From assembly GCF_036346295.1 (NCBI RefSeq), contig NZ_CP107821.1, positions 68,598-132,597 on the forward strand: a stretch of DNA of 64,000 nt, written 5' to 3'. Below are positions 1 to 5,535 of the stretch, one piece after another. This stretch comes from Streptomyces sp. NBC_00536 (lineage in GTDB: Bacteria > Actinomycetota > Actinomycetes > Streptomycetales > Streptomycetaceae). Below the pieces are notes generated by a model that saw nothing but the letters and a program-made list of their open reading frames with translations, did not search any database and was not told the DNA's origin. Every line of letters begins with the position of its first letter. Within the stretch, counting starts at the first letter, position 1. The position numbers and the translations under genes were made by a program.

Positions 1-101
1 CGGCTGGTGGTGCCGTACATCGGGAACGCGCGTGTGAACGCCTCGTACGCCTCAGCTGTCGTGTCCTCGTCCCAGCCGAGGACGGCGTCATGGGGTGCCA
101 T
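1..101 (-). CDS. N-terminal fragment of a probable SAM-dependent methyltransferase
   Basis: The ATG at 101 opens a frame that runs off the left edge of the window (33 codons visible). The visible peptide contains YEAFTRAFPMYGTTS, which resembles the start of small class I methyltransferases found in actinobacteria, but no SAM-binding motif is in view, so the assignment is tentative. A GAGG element lies about 9 nt before the ATG. It is the most downstream visible member of the leftward queD-to-DUF2797 operon, 55 nt after the DUF2797 gene. Confidence 0.5.
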   Translation of the reverse strand, partial: MAPHDAVLGWDEDTTAEAYEAFTRAFPMYGTTS

Positions 102-156
102 TTGGGTGCCTCGCTTCGCGGAAGGGAGACCCCGGTCCGGGCCGGAGCGGGGGTGG

Positions 157-1080
157 TCAGAACAGGGACGCCTGGACGGCGGTACCCGGGGACGTGAACG
201 GGCCGAGGACGATCCGCCGGCCTTTGAGGGCGCCGAGGTCAAGCAGGTAGCCCGTCTCGTCGTCGTTCTCCAGGACGGCGAGGACCTGGGTGCCGATGCA
301 TGAGCGGGGGGTGAAACCGTGTTCCCCTTCCCGGAGGTCGTGCGGGTACAGGACGCGTTCGGTGTCCGGAGTGCGCAGCTGGTTGCCCTCCTCGGGCGGC
401 GTCCACTCCTCCAGTACGGCGGGGACGTTCATGTCGGCCAGGTCCGCGGCAGCTCGGGCGACAGCGTGGTCGTGGCTGGTCCGGGCAGCGGTGAGGGTGC
501 GGAGGTCGGCCAAGGCCCGGAGTTTGGCCGCCGAGCGCACGGTCTGCGCCAGGTCCAATCGGCGGGTAAGGGCGTCTTCGAGGTGCCGTACGGCCTGGCC
601 GTCAGGGCTCTTGGCGAGGTAGGTGGCGAAGAGGGCCCCCTGCTCGTCGAGGCGGGAACGCCGGCGCGGCTCCGCCGCCGTGCCGACCTTGGTGGTGCCG
701 TCCGCGAAGGTGGCCAGGTACAGCCAGTGCGGCTGCGCCATGTACGCGATGAGGGTGTCGGGGGCGTGGCCGCCCTGGTGGAACTGGTGGGCGAAGCGGA
801 ACTCGTCCCTGCTCGCGCACGCGAAGCACTGGCTGTTGTGATCGGTGGTCGTACGCTCAGGGCAGGCGACGGCTTCGACGTTGACGGTGTCGGTGAAGGC
901 GTAGCGGCCGGTGCACCACCGGCCGCTACGGCCCAGCCGGTAGCCGAGACGCTGGTTCATGACCTCGGCGTAGACCAGTGGCCCGCCAGGAAGCGGGGCG
1001 AGCAGGAGCTGGGGCTTACCGCTCGCCCAGGTGACGCCGTGGCACACGTACTCGCCATCGGTCGGTCGGGTCACTGGCAT
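157..1080 (-). CDS. DUF2797 family protein
   Basis: A 307-residue protein matching the DUF2797 pattern: Cys residues spread over the first 90 residues (CTGRY near 57, QCFACAS near 83-89) that could bind zinc, then a central stretch with HWLYLATFADGTTKVG and DEQGA motifs typical of the family. Function of the family is unknown. GAGGAA precedes the ATG. It follows the dTMP-kinase-like gene by 26 nt in the 7-deazaguanine operon. Whether it takes part in that pathway or is a passenger cannot be told from sequence. Confidence 0.82.
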   Translation of the reverse strand: MPVTRPTDGEYVCHGVTWASGKPQLLLAPLPGGPLVYAEVMNQRLGYRLGRSGRWCTGRYAFTDTVNVEAVACPERTTTDHNSQCFACASRDEFRFAHQFHQGGHAPDTLIAYMAQPHWLYLATFADGTTKVGTAAEPRRRSRLDEQGALFATYLAKSPDGQAVRHLEDALTRRLDLAQTVRSAAKLRALADLRTLTAARTSHDHAVARAAADLADMNVPAVLEEWTPPEEGNQLRTPDTERVLYPHDLREGEHGFTPRSCIGTQVLAVLENDDETGYLLDLGALKGRRIVLGPFTSPGTAVQASLF

Positions 1081-1106
1081 GGTGCGTTCCTCGCGGTGGG
1101 GGGCGG

Positions 1107-1805
1107 TCAGACGGTCAGGTGGAGGAGGTCAGACAGGGCCCCGGCCGCGGTCTTGAAGACCGCTTCCTCGTCCATGTCGGTGACGTCGATCGGTAGCCAG
1201 CCGCCACGATGCTGTTGCTCGCGCAGCTGGGCCAGGACGGTGTCCTGGTAGCGGATGAAGTCCTTGTCGCCGCCGCCGGAGTGGCCGGCCTCCAGAGAGG
1301 TGAACGAGCCTCTGCGGGCAAGGGCTTCGCGGGCCCCGATCTTCAGGAAGAACACGACGTCGGGCTCGGTGAGGTGCCCGAAGACCTGTTCGGCCAACTG
1401 GCTGCTGACAGCCGGGTTGACGGCGTACCGGGCGAGGATCTTGTGGTGGCTGTTGTCGAGGACGACGTGCGTTCCCGTGGCGAGCGCGGGCTGGATCACC
1501 AGCTTGTCCTGGAGGGAGTACCAGGCAGCGAGCGCCAGCAGCCAGTAGTGGTCACCGCAGGCCTTGGCGACGCGGGCGTCCCGCCGGTACACCAGGGCGT
1601 TGAGACGGTCGACGTAGGCAGACAGTTCGTCGTCCATGGGAACGGTGGTGCTGTGCTTGCCGACGAGGATCGCCGGGTGTCCGGCATCGTTCAGGGCCTT
1701 GTGCAGGCGGGTGGCAAGGGTGGACTTGCCGGCGCCGTCGCCCCCGACGAAGGCGATCTCCCGACCCCGCACGGGATAGGCCCCGTGTTGTGCTGCGACC
1801 GTCAT
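1107..1805 (-). CDS. dTMP-kinase-like P-loop nucleotide kinase
   Basis: A 232-residue protein with the thymidylate kinase fold signature: Walker A GGDGAGKST near residues 18-26, a VLDNSHHKILARY segment in the position of the DRY motif, and a LID-like RRGSFTSLEAGHSGG region. A longer frame starts at 1913, but AGGAGG just before the ATG at 1805 fixes the start. It lies between the phosphorylase-like gene and DUF2797. Inference: it may phosphorylate a deoxynucleoside or nucleotide made or salvaged by this operon; the true substrate is unknown and need not be dTMP. Confidence 0.8.
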   Translation of the reverse strand: MTVAAQHGAYPVRGREIAFVGGDGAGKSTLATRLHKALNDAGHPAILVGKHSTTVPMDDELSAYVDRLNALVYRRDARVAKACGDHYWLLALAAWYSLQDKLVIQPALATGTHVVLDNSHHKILARYAVNPAVSSQLAEQVFGHLTEPDVVFFLKIGAREALARRGSFTSLEAGHSGGGDKDFIRYQDTVLAQLREQQHRGGWLPIDVTDMDEEAVFKTAAGALSDLLHLTV

Positions 1806-1818
1806 GGCCGGTTCCTCC

Positions 1819-2874
1819 TCAGTTCGGGTGTGCGGCCAGGCGGCCCGCGATGGTGTGGCGGATCTGGTCGACCAGGGCGGCCCGCCGCCGGAGCACGTCG
1901 CGGTGTCGTTCATTGGACAGGTCCGCGGGGTAGTGCCGGGCGAGATTGTTGGAAATGACGTGCAGGTAGCCGAAACCGATCCCTGCGTGGCGCGCAGCGG
2001 CCCCCATGGGGCCGATCTCCGGGTCCACGAAGGCGTAGTCGGCGTGCTTGGCCAGCCAGTCGCGGTTCTCCAGCAGGATCGACGGTGAGGTCACGTGGAC
2101 GCCGGTGTGCACGCCCGGCTGGCCGGAGGCGAACCCGCCGAAGAAGTCGTTCCAGGTGACCAGCCTGTCGCCGACGAGGCTCTCGTTTCCGGTGGCCAGC
2201 AGGGTGTTCGGTTCGATCTCGGGGGCCAGGGCGCCGACCTTGCCGACGTAGACGACGTCCATGGCGCCGAGATCGGCCAGGCGGCCGACGACCCGGCCGG
2301 CGACGTCGCCCCAGATGCTGTGGCGGAAGCCGAGGTAGACCACCCGGCGGCCGTGAAGCGTCGTTCGCTGCCAGGAGTAGCCCGAGCCGTGCGTCCACAC
2401 CCCGTCGGCCGGGGCCAGATGTTCCAGAGCCCAACCGACGACGACCAGGTCCCCGTCGAGGTCGAGTCGGAGCCGGTCGACGGCCGCGCTGCACAGAACC
2501 GGGTCGGGCGGCATGTAGGTGACGGTCTGGGCGGGACGCCCGGTCATCGCCAGGTAGGTGGCGATGATCAGGCCGTAGTGCTGAACGTAGTCGGCGCCGG
2601 GGTACACGTTGACCACCAGGTCGCGGCCGACGGCTTGCGCGGTGGGTCGCTCCCAGTTGAACAGCTTGCCCGTCTTCTCGTGGCGGGAGACCACGGCCTG
2701 GCGGTCGTAGTCGCCGACGACATGGATGCGGTCCCAGTCGTGTTCCTGGATCAGGTGATGGACCTTGATCTCCAGGTAGCGCAGCAGGCTGTCGGGGCCC
2801 ATGGTGTGGCGCGCGGTCTCGATGGGTGCCGCGGGGAGGGCGGCGCTGAGCGGGGGACCGGAGATCAGCGTCAT
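1819..2874 (-). CDS. nucleoside-phosphorylase-like protein of the deazaguanine operon
   Basis: A 351-residue protein. The C-terminal half carries PNP/UDP-phosphorylase superfamily features: LADLGAMDVVYVGKVGAL, a later TGNESLVGD strand, and FVDPEIGPMGAAARHAGI followed by GYLHVISNN, which corresponds to the family's Met-Glu and V-I-S-D regions. The N-terminal 150 residues are not recognised. Its ATG overlaps the DpdA-like stop by 4 nt (ATGA), so the two are translationally coupled. Expected chemistry is cleavage or transfer at a nucleoside N-glycosidic bond; the substrate is unknown. Confidence 0.72.
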   Translation of the reverse strand: MTLISGPPLSAALPAAPIETARHTMGPDSLLRYLEIKVHHLIQEHDWDRIHVVGDYDRQAVVSRHEKTGKLFNWERPTAQAVGRDLVVNVYPGADYVQHYGLIIATYLAMTGRPAQTVTYMPPDPVLCSAAVDRLRLDLDGDLVVVGWALEHLAPADGVWTHGSGYSWQRTTLHGRRVVYLGFRHSIWGDVAGRVVGRLADLGAMDVVYVGKVGALAPEIEPNTLLATGNESLVGDRLVTWNDFFGGFASGQPGVHTGVHVTSPSILLENRDWLAKHADYAFVDPEIGPMGAAARHAGIGFGYLHVISNNLARHYPADLSNERHRDVLRRRAALVDQIRHTIAGRLAAHPN

Positions 2875-3686
2875 GATCGGGCCTGCGCGATCTGCACGTC
2901 GCTGCCGGCCGCGTGCCGGACGACTGCGATGTTGCGTCGGATCAGGTCGAACCGGTCCTCGGGGATCGGGTCGAGGTGCTCGATGCGGGGTGTGCTGGGC
3001 TTCTCGTACGGGCCGTCGGGCAGCAGGGCGATGCCCATCGCGCCGAGGATGACCGGGGCGGCGCCGTCCACGGAGGCGATCCACTCGTGCTCGCGCTGTC
3101 CGACCAGCTCCAAGTGGCCGGTGCGCCCCAGCCCGAGCAGCCGGTAGACGATCCGGTCCTCGACCAGCCCGCGCTCCTCCAGGTAGCGGGTGGCCGCCCA
3201 CCGGGTTCGGCACAGCTGGTCTTCCGGCGCGGGCCGTCGGGAGGCCGGCAGGGCGATGGCGCCGATCTCGCTGTTGGAGACGAGGGCGTCGTACGTGCGC
3301 TTCCACTCCTCATCGTCCGCCGCATGCAAGACGGCGCACAGCCGGAAGTCGGCCCCTGCAAGGTCGCGGATCTCGCGGGCGGCACGCTCGCTCGCCTTGA
3401 GCGTTGCGGGGCCGTCCCGCATGACGTCCGGAAGGATGATCTCCCGCGCCTTGACCGCGTGCCCCGCCTTGACGAGGTCGGCCGCGGGCAGGGCGTGCCC
3501 GAGGTCGAAGACGCCGTTGTCGACGATGATCTCCGCGCCCCGTTCCGTCTCGCGGCGGAAGAAGTCCCGGTATGTCTCGTTCGACAGGACGTGCTGCGCG
3601 GCGACGTGGTGGACGCGGGCCGGGTCCTGCCCGACGAACGCCTCCAGGTAGGCGGGCGGCGCGATGGCGGAGAACTCGATGGCCAT
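2871..3686 (-). CDS. dpdA: DpdA-like (TGT-superfamily) 7-deazaguanine insertion enzyme
   Basis: A 271-residue TIM-barrel protein of the tRNA-guanine transglycosylase superfamily in the short DpdA form. VDNGVFD (55-61) corresponds to the DSGGYQ substrate Asp motif, ILPDVMRDG (84-92) to the second conserved Asp strand, IGAIALPAS (141-149) to the AIGG strand, and LLGLG then SVDGAAP (183-211) to the segment holding the nucleophilic Asp (D207). The TGT zinc site is not apparent, as expected for DpdA. DpdA proteins exchange guanine in DNA for a 7-deazaguanine base. Start overlaps the folE stop (TGATG). A tRNA- or nucleoside-directed role is not excluded. Confidence 0.8.
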   Translation of the reverse strand: MAIEFSAIAPPAYLEAFVGQDPARVHHVAAQHVLSNETYRDFFRRETERGAEIIVDNGVFDLGHALPAADLVKAGHAVKAREIILPDVMRDGPATLKASERAAREIRDLAGADFRLCAVLHAADDEEWKRTYDALVSNSEIGAIALPASRRPAPEDQLCRTRWAATRYLEERGLVEDRIVYRLLGLGRTGHLELVGQREHEWIASVDGAAPVILGAMGIALLPDGPYEKPSTPRIEHLDPIPEDRFDLIRRNIAVVRHAAGSDVQIAQARS

Positions 3687-4333
3687 CACTTCACCCCCCA
3701 CTGCGCGGACGCGGAGGCCATGAACTGGGCGGCAAGCACCGGGTCGGTCAGGAAACGGCCGCCGGACTCCACGGTGGTGGTCCGCGCCGTCTCCATCCGT
3801 ACCCCGCGCATACTCATGCACAGGTGGGCACCGCGGACCGCGACCGCCACGTCCTTGCTGCCGATCACGCTGGCCAGTTCCTCGGCGAGCTGCTGCGTGA
3901 AACGCTCCTGGACCTGGAGCCGTGCGGCGACTCCTTGCGCGATCCGCCCGAACTTGCTCAGGCCGACCACTTCGCCGTCCGGCAGGTAGCCGGCCGCCAC
4001 CTGGAGGTTCATAGGCAGCAGGTGGTGCTCGCACAGGGTCCACACGCTCATGTCGCCGACCACGACCAGCTGGCCGGACAGAGCGGGCTCGGGGAAGCAG
4101 GTGGCCGTGGCCTCGGAGTCCGGGAAGAGGAACGACTTCCACCAGGACGCCACGCGCAGCGGCGTGTCGGCCAGGCCCTCGCGGTCCGGGTTCTCGCCGA
4201 GAGCGATGAGCAGTTCGCGGGTCAGCGCGGTGACGCGCTCGACGTCAACGCTTCCCGGTTGGCCTGCCGGTCCGGGCTGCGCCGGGATGGGCGGGGTCTG
4301 GCTGTCGACCGTCGTGACCGTGGCGTTCGTCAT
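3686..4333 (-). CDS. folE: GTP cyclohydrolase I
   Basis: A 215-residue protein that converts GTP to 7,8-dihydroneopterin triphosphate, the first step of 7-deazaguanine synthesis. Zinc ligands are visible: C101 and H104 in SVWTLCEHHLLPM and C172 in GAHLCMSMRGV. SKFGRIAQ and QERFTQQLAEE complete the family signature. The first 30 residues are Pro/Gly-rich and non-conserved. Its position between queE and the DpdA-like gene shows that it is a pathway-dedicated copy, not the host folate enzyme. A convincing Shine-Dalgarno is not seen at this ATG. Confidence 0.95.
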   Translation of the reverse strand: MTNATVTTVDSQTPPIPAQPGPAGQPGSVDVERVTALTRELLIALGENPDREGLADTPLRVASWWKSFLFPDSEATATCFPEPALSGQLVVVGDMSVWTLCEHHLLPMNLQVAAGYLPDGEVVGLSKFGRIAQGVAARLQVQERFTQQLAEELASVIGSKDVAVAVRGAHLCMSMRGVRMETARTTTVESGGRFLTDPVLAAQFMASASAQWGVK

Positions 4334-4384
4334 GGGCTTGGGTCTCGCTTCCAGGAGTAGGAGACGGGGGAACCGGGCAGGCGG

Positions 4385-5128
4385 TCAGCGTCCGCGGGGA
4401 TCGGGGAACGCAAGGACGTGAAGCCGAGTGGTGAGGTGCCAGCGGTGGGCCGCGACGGCGTCCGCGAGGACGCGCGTGGTCGCGATGACCGCCTCGGGTG
4501 TGGCGCCCTCTGGCATGACCCACACCGGTACGAGGTCGTACGCGCTGACGAGCTCGGCGATCCGGTCGAGGTCCGACACCGAGCTGGCGACGAACTTGAA
4601 CACGGCTCGCCCGGAGGCGGCGAAAGCCTGGAGGGCGGCCGGCCTGATGCTCTTTTCTTCGGCTACGCCGAAGCTGTCGAGCTTGGGGGAGACGTTGAAC
4701 TGGACTCCGTAGACGACCAGTTCCGGGAGCGGTGCGAGAGTACCGTTCGTCTCGAACTCCACCCGTTTGCCGGCCGCGAGCAGGCCCTGGACGAGGGGAA
4801 TCAGCTTCCGCTGCTGGATCAGCGGCTCGCCGCCGGTGATCACGACGAGTTCGACCGGCGAGGAGGTGGCCCAGGCGAGCAGGTCCGCCACCGTGTGGCT
4901 CGTGGACTCCTTGCGGGGGTCGAACTGACTCCAGTCCCAGGTTTCCTTCGTGTCGCAGCGAGTGCACGTCAGGTTGCATCGGGACAGCCGGATGAACAGG
5001 GCCGGGTGCCCGCAGCTGGGCCCCTCGCCCTGAAACGTGGGCTGCTCGATGCCGAAGCGCTCGGCAACAATGAGCCGCACGTCTTCTTCGGCTGCGACGA
5101 GCGGCAGCGGTGCCGCTTCGGGAGGCAT
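4385..5128 (-). CDS. queE: 7-carboxy-7-deazaguanine synthase (radical SAM)
   Basis: A 247-residue radical SAM enzyme that makes 7-carboxy-7-deazaguanine (CDG) from 6-carboxytetrahydropterin. The cluster motif is CNLTCTRC (C51, C55, C58), with the CX3CX2C spacing. TFQGEGPSCGHPALFIRL upstream and VITGGEPLIQQ downstream are the expected substrate and SAM-binding segments. The ATG at 5128 overlaps the queD stop (TGATG), which fixes the start, although the frame stays open further upstream inside queD. No queC, which would convert CDG to preQ0, is found in the window. Confidence 0.95.
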   Translation of the reverse strand: MPPEAAPLPLVAAEEDVRLIVAERFGIEQPTFQGEGPSCGHPALFIRLSRCNLTCTRCDTKETWDWSQFDPRKESTSHTVADLLAWATSSPVELVVITGGEPLIQQRKLIPLVQGLLAAGKRVEFETNGTLAPLPELVVYGVQFNVSPKLDSFGVAEEKSIRPAALQAFAASGRAVFKFVASSVSDLDRIAELVSAYDLVPVWVMPEGATPEAVIATTRVLADAVAAHRWHLTTRLHVLAFPDPRGR

Positions 5129-5535
5129 CAGGCTTCCACCAGGTCGAAGCGGGCCCAGCTGCGCGCGGTCTCGCGGACGCGGACGGCCACGAGCTTGCCG
5201 GGGATGCCCGGCTGAACGTTCTGGACGAACCAGCCGGCCAGGAACCGGGCCAGGAGTTCGGAGGTCGGCTCGAAGGGGAGGACCTCGTGGAGGTTCTGGT
5301 GCTCCAGCTCGGTGTCCAAGAACCTCTTGAAGGGGGCGAGGTCTGCGAAGTCGGTCACGAAGCCCGGCCCGTTCAGGGAGGACCCGGTGAGGATGACCTC
5401 CACCTGGTAGCTGTGCCCGTGCTGCCGGTTGCACTTGTGGTCGGGCGGGAGACTGGGCAGCCGGTGGCCGGCCTCGAAGTCGAAGGTCTTGCCGATGGTG
5501 AACGTGCCGGCCGGAATAGGTACGGGGCTGATCAT
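5128..5535 (-). CDS. queD: 6-carboxytetrahydropterin synthase (QueD/PTPS family)
   Basis: A 135-residue protein of the PTPS fold that turns dihydroneopterin triphosphate into 6-carboxy-5,6,7,8-tetrahydropterin. Zinc ligands H24, H39 and H41 (the latter two in QHGHSY) and the catalytic Cys at 35 (KCNRQHGH) are present. The start at 5535 is chosen because AGGGGG lies 5-10 nt upstream; the frame continues to 5733 without family similarity. It is the first gene of the leftward operon, so the operon promoter should lie in 5536-5681. Confidence 0.94.
   Translation of the reverse strand: MISPVPIPAGTFTIGKTFDFEAGHRLPSLPPDHKCNRQHGHSYQVEVILTGSSLNGPGFVTDFADLAPFKRFLDTELEHQNLHEVLPFEPTSELLARFLAGWFVQNVQPGIPGKLVAVRVRETARSWARFDLVEA

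Follow-up and report, generated by a model that had tools for sequence, protein, structure and literature searches.

A putatively mobile 7-deazaguanine cassette with a short DpdA-like protein in scattered actinomycetes

Streptomyces sp. NBC_00536 carries a compact gene cassette in which queD, queE and folE are tightly linked to a short protein with the fold of tRNA-guanine transglycosylase (TGT) and to a set of nucleos(t)ide-type enzymes, without a queC gene. It is a candidate 7-deazaguanine pathway in scattered actinomycetes. The reading that we tentatively prefer is that the cassette makes 7-carboxy-7-deazaguanine (CDG), that a TGT-type exchange introduces this base, most likely not in DNA but in a guanine (deoxy)nucleotide or nucleoside in free form, and that the whole unit moves horizontally among actinomycetes with sporadic carriage. 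A literature search of incomplete coverage found no published description of the cassette, and an earlier account may exist.

Results

The analysed window covers the right-hand 64 kb of its contig, which is 132,597 bp long; the genome comprises 9.15 Mb in four contigs. Its first genes, all on the reverse strand and listed here in the order of transcription, are the following.

5128..5535, reverse: queD, 6-carboxytetrahydropterin synthase (P0001, 135 aa; PF01242, 3.9e-27; CxxxHxH at 35)
4385..5128, reverse: queE, 7-carboxy-7-deazaguanine synthase-type radical SAM protein (P0002, 247 aa; PHROG 2076, 3.5e-52; CxxxCxxC at 51)
3686..4333, reverse: folE, GTP cyclohydrolase I (P0003, 215 aa; PF01227, 5.5e-49; CEHH and HLC motifs)
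2871..3686, reverse: short DpdA-like TGT-fold protein (P0004, 271 aa)
1819..2874, reverse: nucleoside-phosphorylase-like (PNP-like) protein (P0005, 351 aa; Asn at 309; PF01048, 5.1e-6)
1107..1805, reverse: thymidylate-kinase-type P-loop kinase (P0006, 232 aa; Thymidylate_kin PF02223, 9.5e-9; Walker A at 21)
157..1080, reverse: DUF2797 protein (P0007, 307 aa; PF10977, 1.7e-6; four invariant Cys)
1..101, reverse: SAM-dependent methyltransferase, first 101 bases of the gene (P0008; PF13649, 1.8e-13)
L001 15101-14259, left of the window: remainder of the methyltransferase gene
within L001 15101-11881, beyond the window: forward NUDIX, reverse NUDIX and a 403-aa protein (NUDIX matches 7.7e-14 and 1.1e-16)

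Open reading frame positions and family scans agree with the coordinates, strand and gene order of the operon proposed in the first-pass annotation. The genes are packed closely, with 1-base overlaps between queD and queE and between folE and the TGT-like gene, a 4-base overlap between the TGT-like and PNP-like genes, and gaps of 13-55 bases elsewhere. P0001 and P0002 fall short of the equivalog cut-offs that NCBIfam sets for QueD and QueE, and the PF01048 match of P0005 covers only the C-terminal part of the protein at 26.5 bits (cut-off 25.1). In a separate profile comparison, the Cys region of the DUF2797 profile (protein at 157-1080) resembled the zinc region of QueC, though below threshold (2pg3; E 0.076).

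P0004 has the TGT fold and shows 25% identity (E 3e-10) to an immuto phage protein annotated as DNA guanine transglycosylase (DpdA). A best score with an unrelated TIM-barrel family, which would have spoken against the first-pass assignment, did not occur. The Asp motifs of DpdA, which that annotation had reported, are indeed present: D56, D87 and D207 are kept in all 49 aligned sequences, and from their position at strand ends we take them to be equivalent to the TGT active-site residues. P0004 has no Pfam or NCBIfam match, and the Pfam TGT profile PF01702 reaches only 3 of the 49 aligned relatives (best E 0.054). A search of the PDB by sequence with the TGT-like profile returned no relatives. 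H121-A122 and ASRR distinguish the actinobacterial proteins from most viral rows, in which QG and SFD-type residues stand at these places. Net charge was discarded as a sign of DNA binding, both groups being acidic (means -10.8 for 15 actinobacterial and -10.4 for 34 viral sequences).

The fold raises the question of an RNA substrate. A TGT-like enzyme could put CDG into tRNA or another RNA and so replace a missing queuosine pathway; the own genome gives 0 PF01702 matches (14 of 14 control genomes are positive), and the queuosine pathway itself was rejected on this ground. However, tRNA TGT enzymes have a zinc-binding Cys/His site, and P0004, with only two Cys (117 and 159), would be without a zinc site of this type. 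Its relatives occur in phages with DNA modification, and an RNA product leaves no role for the kinase, PNP-like and NUDIX proteins. We therefore regard RNA modification as very improbable.

Two phage QueC queries detected the control but no QueC in 44 cassette stretches. Among 39 carrier entries, some of them draft genomes and two (G003 and G164) seemingly one genome, 36 pass the cut-off of PF06508 (QueC), with full matches of at least 125 bits in only 12; the other 24 give partial matches of 21-30 bits within far longer frames, and these we take for other proteins; 3 entries give none. The full QueC of the own genome sits on the chromosome, outside the cassette. Since no QueC was found in the cassette stretches and only a minority of carriers have a full one, CDG is the likely base made by the cassette, in line with tubercidin synthesis (PMC6112128) and with what the phiST stretch described below suggests. 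A second 7-deazaguanine locus with queC, queE and queD matches was seen on the own chromosome (L134 6614-9470; G000:C1, about 8430110-8432970); beside it lies a 122-aa protein that by eye reads like an NHLP/Nif11-type leader, and the locus may be a modified-peptide cluster.

Residue 309 of the PNP-like protein differs between loci. In studied PNPs an Asp in this motif donates a proton to N7, which a 7-deaza base lacks. The residue is Asn in all 121 homologs among the matches listed, each with 66% identity or more. It is also Asn in 39 of 40 cassette loci (that of L035 being unread) and in the divergent cassette L137. It is Asp in L047, L048, L049, L050, L136 and L138 (the last aligned by eye, with the G459 match left out of the survey), loci in which neither que nor TGT genes turned up. 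PDB relatives of the PNP profile are poor (uridine phosphorylase, E 0.026 or worse); a recA match at E 0.0019 was taken as chance. No PNP was found in viral contigs.

Short DpdA proteins of P0004-like length (256-285 aa) occur in Flavobacterium immuto, Cellulophaga phiST, Campylobacter CP220, Vibrio D479 and Bacillus BSP7 phages. They share the Asp motifs at about 20-30% identity to P0004, most stand with que/folE genes and several near a kinase-like gene, but their phages have neither PNP nor DUF2797. The kinase-like gene is the next gene in CP220 and Vibrio D479, the gene before in phiST and the third gene on in immuto, with Pfam support from AAA_28 (1.7e-12 and 3.3e-13), AAA_18 (9.4e-7) and DNMK (5.7e-9). 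In BSP7 and Youna2 the gene before the short DpdA gives only weak P-loop matches below the cut-off, and no kinase is annotated in the RHph_I1_18 stretch. Over 80 viral stretches, out of at least 539 relatives, kinase-like genes lie within two genes in 48 and directly beside in 8. Small Walker-A ORFs account for 19 of 119 genes within two places of the short DpdA against 12 of 439 elsewhere (Fisher P 7e-7), counted over 31 groups formed at 70% identity, among which related phages are not independent. Protein searches were read from 120 of 218, 120 of 209 and 120 of 450 matches. The phage kinases have no detectable homology to P0006; descent of P0006 and the immuto kinase from one ancestor was rejected for lack of a match, and thus the parallel is one of position only. 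In Vibrio phage D479 (L139 4986-6388) a deoxynucleoside monophosphate kinase is the direct neighbour of the short DpdA relative, and a GTP cyclohydrolase and a phosphoesterase lie upstream.

The PNP alignment, searched against genome contigs, returned 41 loci, 37 of them actinobacterial with the cassette and four distant, L050 among the latter. The recurrence in 37 other loci makes the gene grouping more than chance. Several of the 37 are near-identical (L014-L016) or come from the same strain (L019 and L036). The order queD-queE-folE-TGT-PNP-kinase-DUF2797-methyltransferase is kept in 33 of the 37; queE precedes queD in L011, L012 and L051, and L038 ends before the PNP gene. In 14 of 37 loci, and also in the plasmid locus L007, the cassette is preceded by two queD-like matches and a divergent queE. 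L137 begins with folE-queD-queE. Counting contig ends as absence, the reverse NUDIX gene is present in 41 of 42 loci, the forward NUDIX in 31 and the 403-aa gene in 22. When pairwise distances are compared between genes, folE, TGT, PNP, kinase, DUF2797, methyltransferase and reverse NUDIX show correlations of 0.86-0.96 with one another, whereas queD and queE reach 0.61-0.87 with these seven.

Carriage is sporadic. With the own genome counted each time, the TGT-like gene is found in 3 of 150 relatives and in 4 of 394 genomes of the class, where 7 have a PNP match. The four TGT genomes lie among these seven, with TGT and PNP genes adjoining in each, and the remaining three have distant or partial PNP matches. 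In the phylum, 3 of 396 genomes match the PNP profile. Three other carriers are large Streptomyces plasmids, and outside neighbour genes common to Streptomyces cassette loci were observed.

The contig has features of a mobile element. It carries a portal protein left of the window (Pfam, 3.3e-46) and a terminase-like protein (PHROG, 1e-18), in line with the phage packaging genes noted in the first pass; of the conjugation genes noted there, the one looked for, an FtsK-type translocase, is present (Pfam, 6.3e-11). An integrase match lies just under its cut-off. The proposal that the operon serves self-protection of packaged or transferred DNA found no support and was rejected: in 46 other loci, searched with flanks of at most 10 kb and in some cases far less, nothing matched the portal, terminase-like, translocase or giant-methylase genes. 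The integrase has one match within the same flanks (L005). A giant open frame of at least 2583 aa (L001 3-7751) by eye resembles a phage-type methylase-helicase.

Discussion

Gene content, TGT fold, conserved motifs, tight linkage and the lack of QueC in the cassette are observed, while the steps after CDG, above all the substrate of P0004, we infer. FolE, QueD and QueE would convert GTP to CDG, and P0004 would then swap guanine for CDG, its probable substrate being a guanine (deoxy)nucleotide or nucleoside in free form. The thymidylate-kinase-type P0006 would phosphorylate the CDG nucleotide and the NUDIX enzymes trim phosphates, the PNP-like P0005, altered at the residue that would face N7, would make or break the base-sugar bond, and the methyltransferase and DUF2797 protein might complete or process what results, a soluble CDG nucleos(t)ide in this scheme. 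In favour of this scheme we count the partners of nucleos(t)ide type, that is a phosphorylase, an NMP-kinase-type kinase and two NUDIX enzymes, and further the TGT fold with its Asp motifs, the absence of QueC, Asn309, the proximity of kinases in phages and the tubercidin precedent. Against it stand the nearest characterised P0004 relatives, which come from phages with 7-deazaguanine in DNA, and the adjacent phage kinases, which are few and not homologous to P0006. The scheme leaves the role of DUF2797 unaccounted for, and no transporter, export or resistance gene and no tubercidin-type phosphoribosyltransferase was recognised in the cassette.

A DNA product stays a close, slightly less likely alternative. 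CDG or a derivative would enter host or plasmid DNA, either by classical DpdA-type exchange or as a CDG-dNTP used by a polymerase. The P0004 relatives are annotated as DNA guanine transglycosylases, and queC, queD, queE or folE accompany a relative in 65 of 80 viral stretches (80 of at least 539 relatives). According to PMC8713573, deazaguanosine replaces guanosine in the DNA of Firehammervirus, and CP220, a Firehammervirus, holds a P0004 relative. In phiST, a 14.6-kb stretch combines queD-queE-folE with a relative and has no QueC annotated. However, the ten cassette proteins include no Pfam match to a DNA polymerase or a DndB-like protein, the PNP, DUF2797, methyltransferase and 403-aa genes occur in none of the 80 viral stretches (again of at least 539 relatives), and exchange in DNA needs neither a phosphorylase nor NUDIX enzymes. 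The bacterial dpd islands (dpdA-dpdK) resemble the cassette in joining 7-deazaguanine genes to a TGT-fold protein, but their precursor is preQ0 and not CDG. In PMC11888242 they are described as requiring both dpdA and dpdB, and for the DndB-like dpdB the ten cassette proteins gave no Pfam match at E up to 1. In phages, nucleotide exchange and a modified genome would be compatible.

Small-molecule pathways offer a precedent for the preferred free-nucleotide scheme. According to PMC6112128, CDG is the branch point of the tubercidin pathway towards a small-molecule product, reached with queD-queE-folE type genes and including a NUDIX step; the tubercidin (tub) and toyocamycin (toy) clusters share the queD-queE-folE order and the NUDIX gene with the cassette, and tubercidin resembles it in using CDG without QueC among the genes seen. 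Unlike the cassette, tub and toy have a phosphoribosyltransferase (TubE/ToyH), a UbiD decarboxylase and a transporter, none of which Pfam recognised in the ten cassette proteins; the cassette has a TGT-fold protein instead. Cadeguomycin is 7-carboxy-7-deazaguanosine. Its base is CDG, just what the cassette would provide together with an enzyme for the base-sugar bond, but the cassette's kinase, DUF2797 protein and methyltransferase are not obviously needed for such a product. The cadeguomycin producer is a S. hygroscopicus (PMC6112128), and one of the carriers, L025, likewise belongs to S. hygroscopicus, an agreement at species level. The portion available of a 2025 review (PMC12648386) lists no gene cluster for cadeguomycin.

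A broader idea, which we consider rather unlikely as it stands, is that short DpdA-type TGT enzymes of phages and cassette alike use free guanine (deoxy)nucleotides and that a nearby kinase lifts the product towards the triphosphate. Phages would thereby replace guanine wholesale at replication, and actinomycetes would obtain CDG nucleotides, possibly of cadeguomycin type. If true, this would account for the kinase-like neighbours of short DpdA in phages and suggest a route to guanine replacement throughout phage DNA. To our knowledge, no member of the TGT fold works on free nucleotides.

The history of the cassette bears on a last alternative. L136 (7057-11251) holds kinase-PNP-DUF2797 with two further genes ahead of the module, and DUF2797-PNP stands in the near-identical L047, L048 and L050; no que or TGT genes were found in any of these. 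Because L136 holds the module alone, it looks as if the que and TGT genes joined an older module later. The older module could then be a defence system that attacks nucleotides or DNA, with the deazaguanine genes supplying a self-mark or a warhead. Sporadic carriage would suit such a role, and so would the DUF2797 core, which weakly resembles GIY-YIG nucleases and may be GIY-YIG-like, in a structural model of low confidence. Matches in PADLOC are partial or weak (methyltransferase to mad2, 2.1e-13; kinase to VakA, 6.8e-6; QueE to pVip, 9.6e-5), and we consider defence improbable. The L050 contig, labelled Actinomycetes, has 27% G+C and carries DUF2797 and PNP fused in one frame that nearly equals those of the rumen Bacilli loci L047 and L048; it is perhaps misbinned.
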